Shown here: positions 21,041 through 28,425 of the stretch, piece after piece | Layout of the letters: each line of letters begins with the position of its first letter | Position numbering within the stretch: position 1 is the first letter of the stretch | From: a bacterium | Lineage (GTDB): Bacteria > UBP6 > UBA1177 | Direction: 5' to 3' | NCBI GenBank assembly: GCA_017961325.1 | Contig: JAGCXM010000025.1 | Coordinates: 1 to 45,194, forward strand | Length of the DNA: 45,194 nt | Program-made: the position numbers and the translations under genes | The notes under the pieces: generated by a model | The model's input: only the letters and a program-made list of their open reading frames with translations | Told to the model about the DNA's origin: nothing | Databases searched by the model: none

Positions 21041-22577
21041 GGTATTCCTTTTCGGTGTTTACGTTCCAGATGTTCGACTTGCCGGTAACGCCGCCGAGAA
21101 TGTTTTTTACAGTCTCGAACGAAGTCGCCATCGAATGGTCGATGTTGTTGTATCTGTGCTGCCCGTTGCGTCCCACGCAGTAGAGATTGGGGATCGTATC
21201 AAGCCAGTTTCTGAGCTCGTCCATCCGGTCGTAAGTATCAAAATATGCCGGATAAGCCTTTTTCACCCGTTCGAGATGGAAATCCAGAACATCGTCGCGG
21301 CTTCCGATAAGACCGAGCTTCATCATTTCGCCGATGCCGAGATCTGAAAACTCCTTTTCAGTCATGTTCCACATAGAACCGCCTTCGTTAACAAAGTATT
21401 CCAGGCCCAGCCATACTGTATTTTCCAAATCACGGACCATGTAGGGAGACCAGTTGTTGTAAATCTGGAAGCGCCCCATTTTAACGTTTCTGTCCTGCAC
21501 GTAAACCCAGCAGTCAGGCACGATGTTTCCTACCGTTTTGAGCTTGGTTCTGTTTTTGAGTCTGAGCTTTTTCACCAGAACGCCGAGCGTCATGTAATCG
21601 CGGTAAGGCAGCCCTTTAGCAATCTGAAAAATGTCGTCCGGGACATCGTTCATTCCGCAGACTAAATCCCTTACCGGCATTGAAGAGATGAAAATGTCGC
21701 CTTCGGTTTCGGTCTTAACGCCGTCTTTTTCATAAAAAAGCGAAACCAGTTTTCCGCTTTCGTCCTTTTTAAAGCCCGAGACCCTGGCTTCGGTAATGAT
21801 TTTTCCTCCCATTTCGCGAACCTTCCCTGCAGCCACTTCCCAAAGCTGCCCCGGACCGAATTTCGGATATTTGAACTCTTCGATCAGAGAAGTTTCGACT
21901 TTGCGGTTTCTGCGCTTGAAAATTTTCCCGAAAACATCTTTCAAAACTGCAGTAACCGAAAGCCCCTTCACGCGCTGGGCACCCCACGAAGCGTCGATTT
22001 CTCGCGGATGACGCCCCCAGAGATTTTCGGTGTAGTATTCAAAAAAAAGTTCGTAAAGCTTTCTGCCGAAGCGGTTGATGTAGAAATTCTCGAGATTCGT
22101 TTCCGGCAGTTTGTGAAGCATCGAACGGAGATATGAAAATCCGACTTCCATCGTCGTGAAAAGCCCCATGTTTCTGAGCGTTTCCATTTTCAGTGAAACG
22201 GGATAGTCATAAAATTTCGAATCAAACAGAATACGTGAAACGCGGTGACGTCTGAGCATAACGGCATCTTCGTTTTCGGGATCAGGACCGCCGTTTTCAA
22301 GCGGAACAGTGCGGCCGAGAATAATGTCATCCTTTGAAAGTTCGCCCTGAAGCGGAAGCAGTTTTTCCCACCATCCGTTCACTTCCTCCATTTTCGAAAA
22401 GAAGCGGTGCCCGCCCATATCCATGCGGTTTCCGTTGTGATTCACAGTGCGTGAAATTCCGCCGAAAACGGAAGATTCTTCAAAAACCGTGACATCAAAA
22501 TCCTTTGACTTTTCAAGCAGTTCGTAAGCGGCGGTCAGACCTGCTGGTCCCGCCCCGATGATCAAAACCTTTTTCAC
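21018..22577 (-). CDS. FAD-dependent oxidoreductase, UDP-galactopyranose mutase/amine oxidase-like
   Basis: 519 residues. The N-terminus is a dinucleotide-binding fold: [20 protein letters not shown] (GxGxxG at about 8-13) with acidic [35 protein letters not shown] segment follows, and the C-terminus has [19 protein letters not shown], where FAD-contacting residues sit in this family. Relatives are annotated as protoporphyrinogen oxidase-like or UDP-galactopyranose mutase-like, and occur in polysaccharide clusters. Its overlap with a GT-C gene and GtrA favours a sugar role here. It lies 5 bases after the Fe-S gene's stop. The substrate is not certain. Confidence 0.8.
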
Positions 22578-22582
22578 GGCAG

Positions 22583-23962
22583 TTATTCGTTGTTGTTGAT
22601 TCTGCCCCAGACATTGCGGACAGATTCGTAAAGGGTTTTAAGGTCTTCGGCATCTTTGGTCGCAGTAATCCTTAGGAAAACGCACTGATCGATTTCTGCG
22701 ATGCCGCGCGCAATGTCTTCCGCAAGCGACTGGCAGCTCGGAGATCCGCACATTCCGCAGTCGATGTTCGGCAGAACCTGCATGATCGTATCGACATGCT
22801 CCATTTTTTCGAGGGCCTTTTCCATGTCATCGTCCAATGAAAGCATCGATCTCGGCTGAAGTTTGTCAAGTTTGAACGCTTCCTGAAGATATTCGCTTCC
22901 GCATTTGCCGAAAATACGGCAGTTCTGGCACGCCGGTTCGGTTTTATCCTCTTCCGGCTTGCCACACGGAGGCAGATTTTTACGCTGAAAAAGATTCCGC
23001 ACGGTAAGAAAACGGTTACCCGGAACAAGAATTCCGCCGGCACAGCTTTCATCGCAGGCTCTGAGCTCGAGGAAAGATATATTTTCGTCAAGCTCACCGT
23101 TTTCAAGTTTGTCCAATATTTCTATGACGTTGTGGATTCCGTCAACCGCCATTGCATGGTTGTCGCGTCTTGCACACTCGCCGCCTGTAAGTTCCCACAC
23201 CACGTGAGTGTTGTCAGCCGGACGGCAGAGCAGACCTGAATCATTTTTATCGTTTGAGACGAAAGAATAAATTTTATTGTAGATGAAATCCATGTTGATG
23301 ACACCGTCGATACCCGATTTTTTCTCACCGACCGGGTGTTTTATCGCGACGATTTTCGCAGCACACGGAGAAACATAAAAAATGCCTATTTCGGCAGGAT
23401 TGATTCCCGCCTTCTTCAGTTCGTTGCGGCAGTGAAGCGCAGCGATGTCAAGCGGCGGCTTGATTAGTGCGATGTGCTTGAGAAGCGAAGGGAACCGCAC
23501 CTGGATAAGCCTTACGACCGCCGGACAGAAAGACGATATCAGCGGAAATTCGGCGTCGCTCCTTTTTTCATACTCCTTCTGAGCCTCTTCGAAAAGGGCC
23601 GAAGCGCGGGAAACTTCATAAACATGCGTAAAACCGACACTTTTCAGACCCTCAAAAACCGATTTCGTTCCCGCTTTTTCGTCAAACTGTCCCATCATAA
23701 CCGAAGGAACGAGTGCGACGCGGTACTTGTAGTTGAAAATTTTCTGGAAATCATCCTGTTCGACGATTATTGCGTCGTGTTTACACGAAATCATGCACAT
23801 TCCGCAGTCAACACACTTGTCGGGATTTACCGAAGCCTTGCCGCCGCGGATTCTTATCGCGTCTGTGGGACAAGTCCGCATGCAGTGGGTACAGCCGATG
23901 CATTTATTCTTGTTGATTCGCAGTGCGTGATGAAAAAACGGGCGTTTGTTGTGTGTCGTCAT
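22583..23962 (-). CDS. [FeFe]-hydrogenase-like iron-sulfur sensor protein
   Basis: 459 residues. A two-cluster ferredoxin domain comes first ([12 protein letters not shown], about 18-29; [12 protein letters not shown], about 46-57). The hydrogenase large-subunit C-terminal domain follows, with modified H-cluster motifs: SSFCP for TSCCP, VSPCAAK for MPCxxK and ACDESCAGG for the third. The cysteines that hold the cubane are kept, but the proton-relay Cys of the first motif is Phe. A third Cys domain ([19 protein letters not shown]) ends it. Such proteins accompany DRTGG and HATPase genes near hydrogenase operons and are thought to sense redox state or H2. The start has AGGAGG 5 bases ahead. No catalytic hydrogenase is in the window. 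Confidence 0.88.
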
Positions 23963-23973
23963 TCGGCCTCCTG

Positions 23974-24387
23974 CTATTCAAGGTTGAAGGATAGTGTCAG
24001 TTTCGTTCCCTTTCCGACCTCGGTTTCTATTTTCATGTCGTCAACGTTGGCTTTGATGTTCGGCAGACCCATTCCCGCGCCGAAACCCATCTCGCGGACT
24101 TTTGTCGAAGCTGTCGAATAACCCTGCTGCATCGCAAGGCCGATGTCGGGAATTCCGGGACCTTCGTCGTCCAGTACTATCTCGATTCTTTTCGGAGAAA
24201 TGTCGGCAGTGATCTTTCCGCGGTAGGCATGCGCCACGATGTTGACCTCGGCTTCGTACAGCGCGACGACGACGCGCTTCAGCACGCCGGTATCGACATT
24301 CAGTTTTTTCAGAACTTTCTTGATGTTCCCCGAAGCATTTCCCGCGTTGAGGAAGTCACCGCCTTCGACATTGTATTCAAACTTCAT
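23974..24387 (-). CDS. HATPase-fold regulator (anti-sigma/serine kinase type)
   Basis: 137 residues, a lone GHKL ATP-binding domain. The N box is VALYEAEVNIVAHAYRG with its conserved Glu and Asn. The G1 box is DEGPGIPD and the G2 box GFGAGMGLPNIK. There is no His-phosphotransfer domain, so it resembles RsbW/SpoIIAB-type anti-sigma kinases. In several anaerobes this gene sits between a DRTGG gene and the hydrogenase-like sensor, exactly as here (gaps of 16 and 11 bases). It is likely to pass the sensor's signal by protein binding or phosphorylation. The target is not visible. Confidence 0.88.
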   Translation of the reverse strand: MKFEYNVEGGDFLNAGNASGNIKKVLKKLNVDTGVLKRVVVALYEAEVNIVAHAYRGKITADISPKRIEIVLDDEGPGIPDIGLAMQQGYSTASTKVREMGFGAGMGLPNIKANVDDMKIETEVGKGTKLTLSFNLE

Positions 24388-24403
24388 GGCTCACCCTAAA
24401 AAA

Positions 24404-24748
24404 TCAATAAACCGGACTCAAACCGTGAGTGTAAAGAATACCCGAAATGTGATAAACCGAAAGCGGACATTCAATTATAACGGCATCGTTTTCCTGCGCC
24501 AGAGAGATCATCTCTTCGGTCGCCTTTTTCTTTCTTGCAAGGATTATCGCCGAAACATCCATCATGTCGGCGGTTCTGATCGACTGCGGATTTGCGAGAC
24601 CGGTAATGAGGATTCCGTTGTCAAAAGGAGTAGTAAGAACGTCGCTCATCAAGTCTGAAGCAAACGCTTTTTCGATTTCGCGGTCGGAAAATTCCTCGCC
24701 GCAGACGATTTTTGCATTGAGAAGAGTAGCAATTTCACTTATTTTCAT
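24404..24748 (-). CDS. DRTGG-domain protein
   Basis: 114 residues of the DRTGG family: MKISEIATLLNAKIVCGEEF, then KAFASDLMSDVLT, ILITGLANPQSIRTADMMDV, AIILARKKKATEEMISLAQEN and the closing CPLSVYHISGILYTHGL. DRTGG domains occur alone or with CBS domains and probably bind a nucleotide or other small ligand. As first gene of the three-gene sensor unit it may report the energy state. It is read from a promoter that shares its -35 box with the divergent lipoprotein genes. Confidence 0.88.
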   Translation of the reverse strand: MKISEIATLLNAKIVCGEEFSDREIEKAFASDLMSDVLTTPFDNGILITGLANPQSIRTADMMDVSAIILARKKKATEEMISLAQENDAVIIECPLSVYHISGILYTHGLSPVY

Positions 24749-24796
24749 GTTTCAAGCACCACATCAAAAAACGGTAATAAACAAAAAAACCGCATA

Positions 24797-24846
24797 ATTT
24801 TAAAGATATTCGGCTAAATTGCAAATTATTCCGCAGCAACTATAAT
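24797..24846. promoter_or_regulatory. Divergent promoters sharing one palindromic -35 box
   Basis: The palindrome TTGCAA (24819-24824) has TATAAT (24841-24846) 16 bases to its right for the plus strand. TAAAAT on the minus strand (24797-24802) lies 16 bases to its left. The plus promoter drives the lipoprotein genes, and the minus one the DRTGG/HATPase/sensor genes. One polymerase should exclude the other. Confidence 0.65.
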
Positions 24847-24879
24847 CTGCCGTTTTTTGTCCGATTTGCGGAGGTCGAT

Positions 24880-26253
24880 ATGAAAAAGTTTTTTGTGCTT
24901 TCACTTATTGTTTTATCAGTGATTTTCCTTGTTTCATGCGGCGGCGGTTCAAAAGAAGAGAAAGAGAACGGGAAAAACGGATCGGAACAAACGGATGATT
25001 CAGATTCCGGCGGCACAGACAGCGGCTCGCCCGAGGATTATAAAGTCGACGAGAACATTCTTGAAGTTCCGGCCGATCAGGACAATACGGCCGGTGCGCT
25101 GTGCGATCCGAAAACTTTTGTCGAATCATGCGACGGCAACGCATATATCGACTGCTACGAAGACTGGGTGGACGACGAAACCTATGCATATATTGTACAC
25201 CGGACTGAGTGCAGCGGAGAAGCCCCGATATGTTTTGTATCTAAGCATAAAAATGAAGAAGAAAACAGGGAATACAACTGGGCTAACTGCTATTCATCAT
25301 GCGAAAACGAAAATACAGGCAAAAGTGAGGGCTGCACCAGCTATGACAACGGCTACTCATTTTTACTTGAAGAATACGAATGCGTTGAGACTAGCAAGGG
25401 AAAACTTAAATTCACCGGTGGTGCATATAAACCATGCGACTCAGGCTGCTCGGCAGACGGAAAAACCTGCGAAATAAAGAAATGCGACCTTGAAAAAGAC
25501 AAACCTTACTGCGATGAAAACGGCGTTCTGCACGAATGCAGCAACTGGGAAGAAGGGATGGTTTATCAGGAAGCATATTTCTGCGGAAGCATGAAAATGA
25601 TGACCTGCAGATACGATGAAGATTTCGGAGGTTTCGGCTGCTTTGAAGACCTTTATGCAGTTGATGAAGATCTTGCCGAAATTCCGGAAGATCAGGACAA
25701 TACGGAAGGTGCATCGTGCGACCCGGACACTTTTATTGAATTCTGTGACGGAAACACAGTTGTTTATTGTTTTTCTACGGAGTTTGAACAAAACGGGCAT
25801 GTTATCAAATCGACATGCGACTGGAACTATCCTGTCTGCTTTACACATGCATACGAATATGAAGAAAAACCCTGGAACGTAGCGGGCTGCTATGCATCCT
25901 GCGACGGCGAAAATGTCGGTGACGGGGAAATCTGCCTGACTTATGACTCCGGATATACTTTTGAACTTGAAAAATACAAGTGCATTGAGACAAGCAAAGG
26001 GAAACTGAGATTTCTTGACGAAAGCACGACCTGCAATTCCGCCTGCTCCGAAGACGGCAGATCATGCGAAATAAAGGAATGCGACCCCTCCAAAGACAAG
26101 GCTTACTGCGATGAAAACGGTGTTCTGCACGAGTGCATCGAATGGTCCGGCATGGAAATCGCCAGTTTCTGCAATTACGAGGATTCGAATATGGTTTGCG
26201 AATACATTGAATATGATGAAAGGTTCGGCTGTAACTACAAGCCGGCTGATTAG
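24880..26253 (+). CDS. Cys-rich lipoprotein with two repeats of one module
   Basis: 457 residues. Signal peptide with lipobox LVSC (17-20), then a D/S/G/E-rich linker (about 21-54). Two copies of a module of about 200 residues follow, from about 56 and about 261. Both start VDE(N/D)xxExPxDQDNTxGAxCDP and have TF(V/I)ExCDGN. Each then runs through CYxSC, a YxCxETSKGKLxF strand, a CxSxCSxDGxxCEIKxCD turn and CDENGVLHEC. About 40 Cys residues suggest a disulfide-rich surface domain. I do not recognise the family. A GGAGG site precedes the ATG. The next gene encodes a paralogue with a single module. Confidence 0.85.
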   Translation: MKKFFVLSLIVLSVIFLVSCGGGSKEEKENGKNGSEQTDDSDSGGTDSGSPEDYKVDENILEVPADQDNTAGALCDPKTFVESCDGNAYIDCYEDWVDDETYAYIVHRTECSGEAPICFVSKHKNEEENREYNWANCYSSCENENTGKSEGCTSYDNGYSFLLEEYECVETSKGKLKFTGGAYKPCDSGCSADGKTCEIKKCDLEKDKPYCDENGVLHECSNWEEGMVYQEAYFCGSMKMMTCRYDEDFGGFGCFEDLYAVDEDLAEIPEDQDNTEGASCDPDTFIEFCDGNTVVYCFSTEFEQNGHVIKSTCDWNYPVCFTHAYEYEEKPWNVAGCYASCDGENVGDGEICLTYDSGYTFELEKYKCIETSKGKLRFLDESTTCNSACSEDGRSCEIKECDPSKDKAYCDENGVLHECIEWSGMEIASFCNYEDSNMVCEYIEYDERFGCNYKPAD

Positions 26254-26292
26254 TTGAAAAACAGAAATTTCATATAACTATCGGAGGTCAAA

Positions 26293-27162
26293 ATGAAAAA
26301 GTTTTTTGTGCTTTCATTTATGGTTTTATCAATGATTTTCTTTGTTTCATGCAGTAACAAAAGCAACAAAGATGAAATTGCCGGCAAAGACGGCGATCAG
26401 ACAAACGATACCGAGACTGATGATTCTGGTAACGACGGCGATGCCGACACAAGCGATTCCGGCAACGATACTGACTCAGGTGATTCGGCAAACGATGATG
26501 ATACCGATCCCAATAATTCCGGAACCGATGATATTGATCCTGAATTTGTAGTTGACGAGAATCTTTTTGAAGTTCCTGCCGACCAGAACAACACTGAAGG
26601 TGCATTGTGCGATCCGCAAACTTTTGTCGAATTCTGCGACGGCAATGCATATGTTTACTGTTCCGAACAATATGAAAATGACGAAATAACCAACATCGTG
26701 GAAAAATATGAATGCGACGATGAAGAAAGTCCTGTCTGCTTTACCTACCGGAGAAACGATGAGGGCTGGGAGCACAACTGGGCTGCATGTTTTTCACGTT
26801 GCGAAACCATAGGCAAAGGCTCGGAATGCACCAGTGAAGATGACGGATTTTATTTCTGGTATTATGAATCTACATGCAAGCAGACAAGCAAAGGGAAACT
26901 TCTGTTCTTCGGCGAATACATACCGTGTAACTCGGCCTGCTCCGAAGACGGCAAAACCTGTGAAATAAAAGAATGCAACCCGGAAACAGATGCCCCCACC
27001 TGCGATGAAAACGGCGTTCTCCATTACTGCGACGAATACTCTAATTTCACAGCCGCCGAATTCTGTGCATTAGACGGGGCTGTATGCGGATATGACGAAT
27101 TTTTCGAAGAATCTGTCTGCATCTATTCCGAAGATGAAGAGGATGAATGGGGAAACGATTAA
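26293..27162 (+). CDS. Cys-rich lipoprotein with one copy of the module
   Basis: 289 residues, a paralogue of the gene 39 bases upstream. The first 20 residues differ only slightly (MKKFFVLSFMVLSMIFFVSC), and the GGAGG site is kept. The linker is longer and strongly acidic (about 21-90; repeats of DSGND and related words). One module follows (VDENLFEVPADQNNTEGALC onward), with the same CDGNAYVYC, TSKGKL and CDENGVLHYC marks. The pair shows gain or loss of whole modules. It should be co-transcribed with the upstream gene and with the channel gene 18 bases downstream. Confidence 0.85.
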   Translation: MKKFFVLSFMVLSMIFFVSCSNKSNKDEIAGKDGDQTNDTETDDSGNDGDADTSDSGNDTDSGDSANDDDTDPNNSGTDDIDPEFVVDENLFEVPADQNNTEGALCDPQTFVEFCDGNAYVYCSEQYENDEITNIVEKYECDDEESPVCFTYRRNDEGWEHNWAACFSRCETIGKGSECTSEDDGFYFWYYESTCKQTSKGKLLFFGEYIPCNSACSEDGKTCEIKECNPETDAPTCDENGVLHYCDEYSNFTAAEFCALDGAVCGYDEFFEESVCIYSEDEEDEWGND

Positions 27163-27180
27163 TTAAAAACCGGAGATTTT

Positions 27181-28425
27181 ATGCAGACATTTTTTAAAAT
27201 GATAACGCCCGATTTTTTGTCGGATTTTTTCGCGAATCACATTTTAATACGAATGCTTTTTGATTTCATCGCAGTTTCGATTTTAGCGTTTATACTCACT
27301 TTCGTTGCGAGAAAAATAGTTGACGTCATCATCAAATTCACCGTTACACGGACAAAAACCAAATGGGACGACGTCTTCTTCAGGCACGGTGTTTTCTCGA
27401 AATTCGTGAACATGGTGCCGGCACTTGTTTTCTTCTGGTCGGCTTCTTCGTTCGAACGCGGCAGTCACTGGCTGAAAAAGCTCTCGTTCTGCATAATCAT
27501 AATCGTTTTCATGGACATCATCAGAGCCGCCAACAAGGCTATGCTCGAAATTTACGACTCCTTTGAAATCTCGAAGGACAGACCGCTCAAAGGTCTCATG
27601 CAGATAATTCTGATTGTGATCTACTGCGTCGGACTCATCGCGATAGTTTCAATACTTCTCGACAAGTCCCCTGCCCTGCTCCTCAGCGGTTTAGGAGCAA
27701 TGACGGCAGTCATAATGCTGATTTTCAGAGACACCATCCTCGGTTTTGTCGCCGGTCTGCAGATTGCTGCGAACAATTCGATAAGGAAAGGCGACTGGAT
27801 CGTCATGCCGCAGAACAACGCCGACGGCGAAGTCGTCGACATAGCGCTCCACACCGTAAAAATCCAGAACTGGGACAAAACAATTGCCAATATTCCGACG
27901 CACAAGTTTCTGGAAGAGAGTTTCACGAACTGGCGCGGAATGGTCGAATCTGGCGGAAGACGCATCTGCCGCGACATTCTGATAGACGTTTCATCGATCA
28001 GATGCCTGACCGACGAAGAGATTGCAAAATTCAGCAGAATCGAACTTTTGTCCGACTACATGAAGGCTAAAACCGCCGAAATTTCGTCATGGAACGCAAA
28101 AGTTAACGCTGAAATTCCCGTGAATACGCGCCGTCTCACGAATATCGGCACTTTCCGCGAATATGCCCGCAGATACCTGCTGAACAACGACAAACTGCGT
28201 CAGGATCTCACGCTTCTGGTAAGATTTTCCGACTTCGGCGAACACGGAATCCCGCTTCAGATCTACGCTTTCACGAAAACGACGGAACTTGCCGAATACG
28301 AGGCTGTTCAGGCCGATATTTTCGATCACCTTATCGCTACGGCAGGATTTTTCGGTCTGACGCTTTATCAGCAGCCGGGCTGGCATGACATTCAAGTTTT
28401 AGCCGAAAATTTCAAGGGAAAATAA
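27181..28425 (+). CDS. MscS-family mechanosensitive channel, YbdG-like
   Basis: 414 residues. About five membrane helices precede the pore helix region SGLGAMTAVIMLIFRDTILGFVAGLQIA. The MscS beta domain comes next (IRKGDWIVMPQNNADGEVVDIALHTVKIQNWDK in parts, IPTHKFLEES). The helix 1-4 arrangement, the RRICRDILIDVSSIR segment and the length match the YbdG/MscM branch, which opens on hypo-osmotic stress in the inner membrane. Its stop shares one base with the next start (TAATG), so translation of the phosphoesterase is coupled. Confidence 0.92.
   Translation: MQTFFKMITPDFLSDFFANHILIRMLFDFIAVSILAFILTFVARKIVDVIIKFTVTRTKTKWDDVFFRHGVFSKFVNMVPALVFFWSASSFERGSHWLKKLSFCIIIIVFMDIIRAANKAMLEIYDSFEISKDRPLKGLMQIILIVIYCVGLIAIVSILLDKSPALLLSGLGAMTAVIMLIFRDTILGFVAGLQIAANNSIRKGDWIVMPQNNADGEVVDIALHTVKIQNWDKTIANIPTHKFLEESFTNWRGMVESGGRRICRDILIDVSSIRCLTDEEIAKFSRIELLSDYMKAKTAEISSWNAKVNAEIPVNTRRLTNIGTFREYARRYLLNNDKLRQDLTLLVRFSDFGEHGIPLQIYAFTKTTELAEYEAVQADIFDHLIATAGFFGLTLYQQPGWHDIQVLAENFKGK

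Follow-up and report, generated by a model that had tools for sequence, protein, structure and literature searches.

A predicted palindromic -35 box shared by two opposed promoters, with a lipoprotein cassette probably docked on a resident promoter, in an uncultured rumen bacterium

Examination of the window – the whole stretch of DNA that was analysed, 45,194 nucleotides in length, to which all positions refer – identifies at 24797-24846 a symmetrical arrangement of TAAAAT on the minus strand, 16 bases, TTGCAA, 16 bases, and TATAAT on the plus strand, located between a unit transcribed leftwards from a DRTGG-domain gene and lipoprotein genes transcribed rightwards. We interpret this site, with a probability of roughly 0.7, as a pair of opposed sigma-70-type housekeeping promoters that share their -35 box, in which a lipoprotein cassette has docked on the resident promoter of the DRTGG unit. 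TTGCAA would be the box of the promoter that serves the DRTGG, ATPase and hydrogenase-like genes, and the lipoprotein cassette, bringing its own -10 box and leader, would sit across from it and read the same six bases on the other strand. The features concerned are as follows.

22583-23962, minus strand: protein with ferredoxin, Fe-hydrogenase large-subunit C-terminal and FeS domains (Pfam Fe_hyd_lg_C, E 6e-24)
23974-24387, minus strand: RsbW/SpoIIAB-like ATPase (Pfam HATPase_c_2, E 6.3e-12; NCBIfam anti-sigma F factor, below cut-off)
24404-24748, minus strand: DRTGG-domain protein, first gene of the minus unit (Pfam DRTGG, E 6.9e-06)
24797-24802, minus strand: predicted -10 box TAAAAT (ATTTTA on the plus strand) of the DRTGG promoter, 16 bases from TTGCAA
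24819-24824, both strands: predicted shared palindromic -35 box TTGCAA, read from the sequence and invariant in the four genomes of the genus that carry it
24841-24846, plus strand: predicted -10 box TATAAT of the lipoprotein promoter, 16 bases from TTGCAA and invariant in 4/4 of those carriers
24870-24874, plus strand: GGAGG, the likely ribosome-binding site of the lipoprotein gene, read from the sequence
24880-26253, plus strand: cysteine-rich lipoprotein, first gene of the plus unit (signal peptide with lipobox in the translation)
26293-27162, plus strand: second lipoprotein with a related signal peptide (from the translation; weak PG1828-type lipoprotein match below cut-off)

The first of the two lipoproteins gives no match in Pfam or NCBIfam at E 0.001, and the start regions of the two genes are 92% identical over 71 bases. 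They are followed among the plus genes by an MscS-type channel and then a DHH protein, both recognised by Pfam. On the minus strand, the first-pass annotation had described a 'hydrogenase-type sensor unit', which was a reasonable guess from the DRTGG, RsbW-like ATPase and Fe-hydrogenase C-terminal domains, with the sensor role itself best regarded as putative. A search with Rfam at gathering scores across positions 22000-28000 gave no match to an RNA element. We note that the cysteine-rich lipoproteins occupy the gap in one or two copies (24880-27162 in the window), and that many similar lipoproteins are found elsewhere in the genus, with start regions alike at the DNA level from the leader into the signal peptide. 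We also note that 13 of 15 genus genomes encode a second, distant DRTGG protein (25-26% identical; for example at G000:C43:119512-119829).

An ortholog of the DRTGG gene is present in all 15 genomes of the genus, and the 260 bases upstream of it contain exactly one TTG-16-TAnnnT on each strand in every one of them. Four genomes (G000, G008, G001 and G003, the window's genome included) have the shared box, and the divergent gene is a lipoprotein in all four. The remaining 11 have two separate 16-spaced promoters and a different divergent neighbour, which is a DUF1538-like gene in nine (called from translations in four of these and from DNA likeness in the other five) and a response-regulator-like gene in two; here and below, DUF1538, response-regulator-like, purM, udk, radC, uvrB and methylmalonyl-CoA mutase are putative names, given on reading the translations. 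The minus-strand promoter in these separate-box genomes has TTGCTA or TTGCCT as its -35 box, and the plus-strand promoter is TTGAAC-16-TATAAT or TTGCAA-16-TAGAAT. The minus -10 box across the genus is TAAAAT in 12 of the 15 genomes, TAAAGT in one and TATCGT in two. As 11 of the 15 genomes have separate promoters, the fused box goes with the lipoprotein and does not reflect a fixed need for coupling.

The four carriers and the nine genomes with a DUF1538-like neighbour can be aligned across the box, where the nine have AAATAGCAAA and the carriers have AATTGCAAA. One A-to-T difference accounts for the TTG on the plus strand, and in the minus box it changes position 5 only (TTGCTA to TTGCAA). Insertion of the cassette together with this A-to-T change (TAGCAA to TTGCAA on the plus strand) would have created the shared box. 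The DUF1538-like gene comes after the lipoprotein in G008 and G001, and in G001 the neighbour's own promoter, TTGAAC-16-TATAAT, persists downstream of the lipoprotein and ahead of the DUF1538-like gene, which places the cassette between the pair of promoters found in those nine genomes.

The first-pass annotation had proposed conservation of the TTGCAA core and of both 16-base distances in relatives as a check on its reading, and both are retained in all four lipoprotein carriers, the window's included. None of the 18 box columns varies among these four, as against 12 of 32 spacer columns (Fisher p 0.0019), although these sites, being orthologous, are not necessarily independent of one another. 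Variation is limited in the plus spacer too (4 of 16 columns), and the closeness of the carrier sequences accounts for part of the conservation of the boxes. A locus tree built from the DRTGG gene into the hydrogenase gene scatters the lipoprotein carriers, which form no clade and require four changes. We note that the locus itself (22583-24748 in the window) is mosaic: the DRTGG start and the gap are nearest G008 by a small margin (89%, with the others at 76-89%), and the segment 23750-24050 is nearest G011, G005 and G010 (86-89%, with the others at 77-83%), which suggests that exchange may have occurred between species. Because the carriers are not a clade and the locus is mosaic, the reverse polarity, in which the separate-box state arose by loss from an ancestor that had the shared box, is possible.

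If the boxes act as promoters, the housekeeping polymerase would bind the shared box either way round and melt the -10 box on the side that it faces. The two core promoters overlap physically through the single hexamer that is common to both. Their -10 boxes are separated by 38 bases, and the transcription starts, predicted ~7 bases downstream of each -10 box at ~24790 on the minus strand and ~24853 on the plus strand, by ~63 bases, both spans being shorter than two polymerase footprints. One polymerase at a time would therefore be expected on the box, with exclusive occupancy for as long as it stays bound, and the first-pass claim that polymerase can use the site in only one direction at a time is a fair reading of this geometry. 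The further claim, that the two units are mutually exclusive in expression or share a regulator, finds no support: coupling is not maintained in the 11 of 15 genus genomes in which the DRTGG unit has a separate promoter and another divergent neighbour, and no palindrome longer than the box itself is conserved there. Each direction would cost the other only when firing is frequent, and the effect on expression would depend on promoter strength.

An exclusive switch, with polymerase at one promoter blocking the other and a regulator deciding between them, would make the sensor unit and the lipoproteins alternate in expression; we regard this alternative as unlikely, even with core promoters that overlap as these do. 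RNA polymerase is described as acting as a switch on the overlapping divergent promoters Pc and Pr of plasmid pLS20, where a strong and a weak promoter operate with a dedicated regulator and DNA looping (PMC4207663). The present site resembles Pc/Pr in that divergent overlap lets polymerase hold only one promoter at a time, and differs in that both promoters look complete, one hexamer is shared exactly and no regulator is known. Against alternation are the separate promoter of the sensor unit in the 11 relatives, the use of the same layout by unrelated gene pairs (see below), and the lack of a longer conserved palindrome around the box, this being the only kind of regulator motif sought. A study of five bidirectional promoters in Escherichia coli, which share -10 boxes, likewise reports that basal firing was too low for directional competition, which appeared once one direction was strengthened (PMC12825309).

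The closest described relatives are the bidirectional promoters of bacteria and archaea reported by Warman and co-workers (among them those of PMC12825309), in which the -10 element is shared or reciprocally overlapping and starts are 7-25 bp apart, mostly 18 (PMC10268837). Both arrangements use a symmetric element to serve both orientations and both give overlapping occupancy; theirs share the -10 element, and here it is the -35 box that is shared, with the -10 boxes outside and the predicted starts correspondingly far apart. With 38 bases between its -10 boxes the window's site falls outside the bidirectional class as so defined, and its layout, in which the two promoters have the -35 box in common and the -10 boxes flank it, is a variant of the bidirectional promoters described.

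The palindrome itself was confirmed in the sequence, TTGCAA being its own reverse complement with a -10 box exactly 16 bases away on each side, and it follows from the sharing, since two boxes that begin with TTG can have all six bases in common only as TTGCAA. The exact triple is unique in the window's genome (2.35 Mb, 97.9% complete). Both promoters are listed by a consensus scanner as near-consensus sigma-70-type hexamers, with 10/12 matches on the plus strand and 9/12 on the minus strand; the minus strand can also be read one base shifted, as TTTGCA with a 17-base spacer, again at 9/12 by the same scanner. It is quite doubtful that only one of these promoters is real and the other half a coincidence, a reading prompted by the AT-rich DNA of the gap (131 bases between the DRTGG gene and the first lipoprotein gene, 36% GC) and by the tendency of consensus scans to over-predict (18 promoters against 10.7 expected in 10 kb). 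In 200,000 dinucleotide shuffles of the gap, A...TA-16-TTGCAA-16-TA...T appeared 11 times, the stricter AT..TA/TA..AT form once, and the loose form allowing any spacer length from 15 to 18 appeared 149 times; the layout TAAAAT-16-TTGCAA-16-TATAAT is thus unlikely to have arisen by chance. The invariance of all 18 box positions in four species, the occurrence of the minus promoter alone with the same spacing in 11 relatives, and predicted starts located 27 (plus) and 42 (minus) bases before the start codons also argue against coincidence.

That TTGCAA is the operator core of a dimeric regulator and not a shared -35 box is very improbable, for although it is a palindrome between divergent genes, nearly symmetric in the window as TAAATTGCAAATTA and followed by a right flank, AATTATTC, that is invariant too in the four carriers, the left flanks of these differ (CTAA, CGAA, CTAA and CGGA), the 16-base link to both -10 boxes is conserved and recurs at unrelated loci, and TTGCAA occurs among the genome's own promoter-like matches (3 of 30 sampled TTG-16-TAnnAT). 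The longer operator-like palindrome TAAATTGCAAATTA was rejected as a candidate, its left half not being kept across the four carriers.

The opposed-promoter reading agrees with the spacing of promoters in the organism as a whole. In a sample of 444 kb of the window's genome (the window and 399 kb of other stretches), which provided 148 regions upstream of called genes, a search for TTGNNN-k-TATAAT with k from 12 to 22 gave 17 matches, 10 of them at k=16 and seven over the ten other spacings, including one at 17 and none at 15 or 18. Sixteen bases is a sharp local norm, and the site fits the organism's own promoters. The distances of exactly 16 on each side to which the first-pass annotation drew attention are correct, and they lose their special symmetry, since two equal distances need no special explanation where 16 is usual. 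Start regions of related lipoproteins in the genus follow the same rule, with TTG-16-TAnnAT in 11 of 22 and three matches over the seven other spacings from 13 to 20 (the 22 being 28 rows less the window site and its orthologs, four rows, and two rows without a start codon). The rule is not absolute: the purM promoter has a 16-base spacer in 10 of 14 genomes and a 17-base spacer in four, the window's own genome among them. Compared with the sigma-70-type core promoter, the likeness lies in TTGNNN and TAnnAT at a set distance upstream of genes, and the difference in a spacing sharply at 16, where the textbook optimum for E. coli is 17.

Whole genomes were searched for the pattern ANNNTA-n-TTGCAA-n-TANNNT, counting full six-base overlaps only; orthologs were counted separately, so that loci matter more than site totals. 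The 15 genus genomes contain 19 sites at n=16, two at 17 and two at 14, and the reversed pattern at n=16 gives two sites. Across 28 genomes of the phylum, in which the 15 are included, there are 40 sites at 16, 20 at 17 and 13 at 15. The excess lies in the order without family f4, whose 25 genomes have 33 sites at 16/16, nine at 17/17 and three at 15/15; family f4 (three genomes) shows no enrichment, with seven at 16, 11 at 17 and 10 at 15. By an automatic ORF rule, divergent gaps hold 14 of 37 distinct sites at 16/16, two of 12 at 17/17 and none of 13 at 15/15, and 16 of the 37 sites at 16/16 are called coding. The counts by this rule take in 37 of the 40 sites at 16/16, 12 of the 20 at 17/17, all 13 at 15/15 and both at 14/14, a spacing for which the search was confined to the 15 genus genomes; every one of the 11 remaining sites belongs to family f4. 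Its calls misfit in places because of spurious or over-extended ORFs: the window's own site was called 'codirectional' and two sure sites, L069 and L101, 'coding'. L196, probably a coding repeat, was called 'divergent', and the counts were left unchanged.

The shared-box layout is clearly rare per genome. In the genome sample, two of 37 called divergent pairs have 16-spaced TTG/TAnnnT on both strands and neither shares a box, with a caller that overlooked even the window's own pair. The stricter form AT..TA/TA..AT with spacers of 15-17 gives seven sites in the 15 genomes, six of them 16/16 at two loci, and the reversed pattern gives none. A search of the same genomes allowing up to three mismatches (forward plus reverse at least 278, against at least 56 for the reversed pattern) was set aside, since its count is inflated by lone unidirectional promoters and the reversed pattern, which includes a CG, is a poor control.

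The clearest of the other loci is purM, found in 14 of the 15 genus genomes with a TTGCAA box at its promoter in all 14, in 10 of them as TTGCAA-16-TATATT. A gene for udk is divergent on this box in three genomes (G008, G003 and G004) with a -10 box at 16, and TAnnnT at 16 bases beyond the purM box is present only in those three. The predicted resident box at purM thus has a partner in three genomes and none in the others. At another locus, in G000 (C12) and G010 (C29), the promoter and plus gene are alike and the minus gene differs (the G000 site is called coding by the ORF rule), and in these two species the partner seems to have been swapped at the shared-box promoter (L101 1501-1550, L100 1501-1550). 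Further divergent 16/16 gaps include one in G007, radC/mutase in G017 and G018, uvrB in G020 with a like gap in G021 (coding by the ORF rule), lipoprotein/lipoprotein pairs in G015 and G016 (the latter with TATAAT as both -10 boxes), and a single one in the f4 genome G026. These loci lead us to propose, tentatively, that throughout the order any TTGCAA -35 box can be docked on from either side, owing to the near-rigid 16-base spacing, and that unrelated gene pairs have repeatedly come about in this way. With a -10 box placed 16 bases away on the unoccupied side, an arriving gene or cassette would have a working promoter at once.

The order to which these genomes belong consists of uncultured bacteria of the ruminant gut, and the window's genome is that of a rumen bacterium. 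On our reading of the sequences, living relatives display both states, with and without the putative newcomer, at the window site and at the udk/purM site, and sister species thus give natural with/without comparisons. For annotation of this uncultured group, we offer the rule TTGNNN, 16 bases, TAnnAT. The arrangement suggests a route by which new genes may acquire promoters: an opposed neighbour's -35 box is borrowed, with as little as one base change in it.
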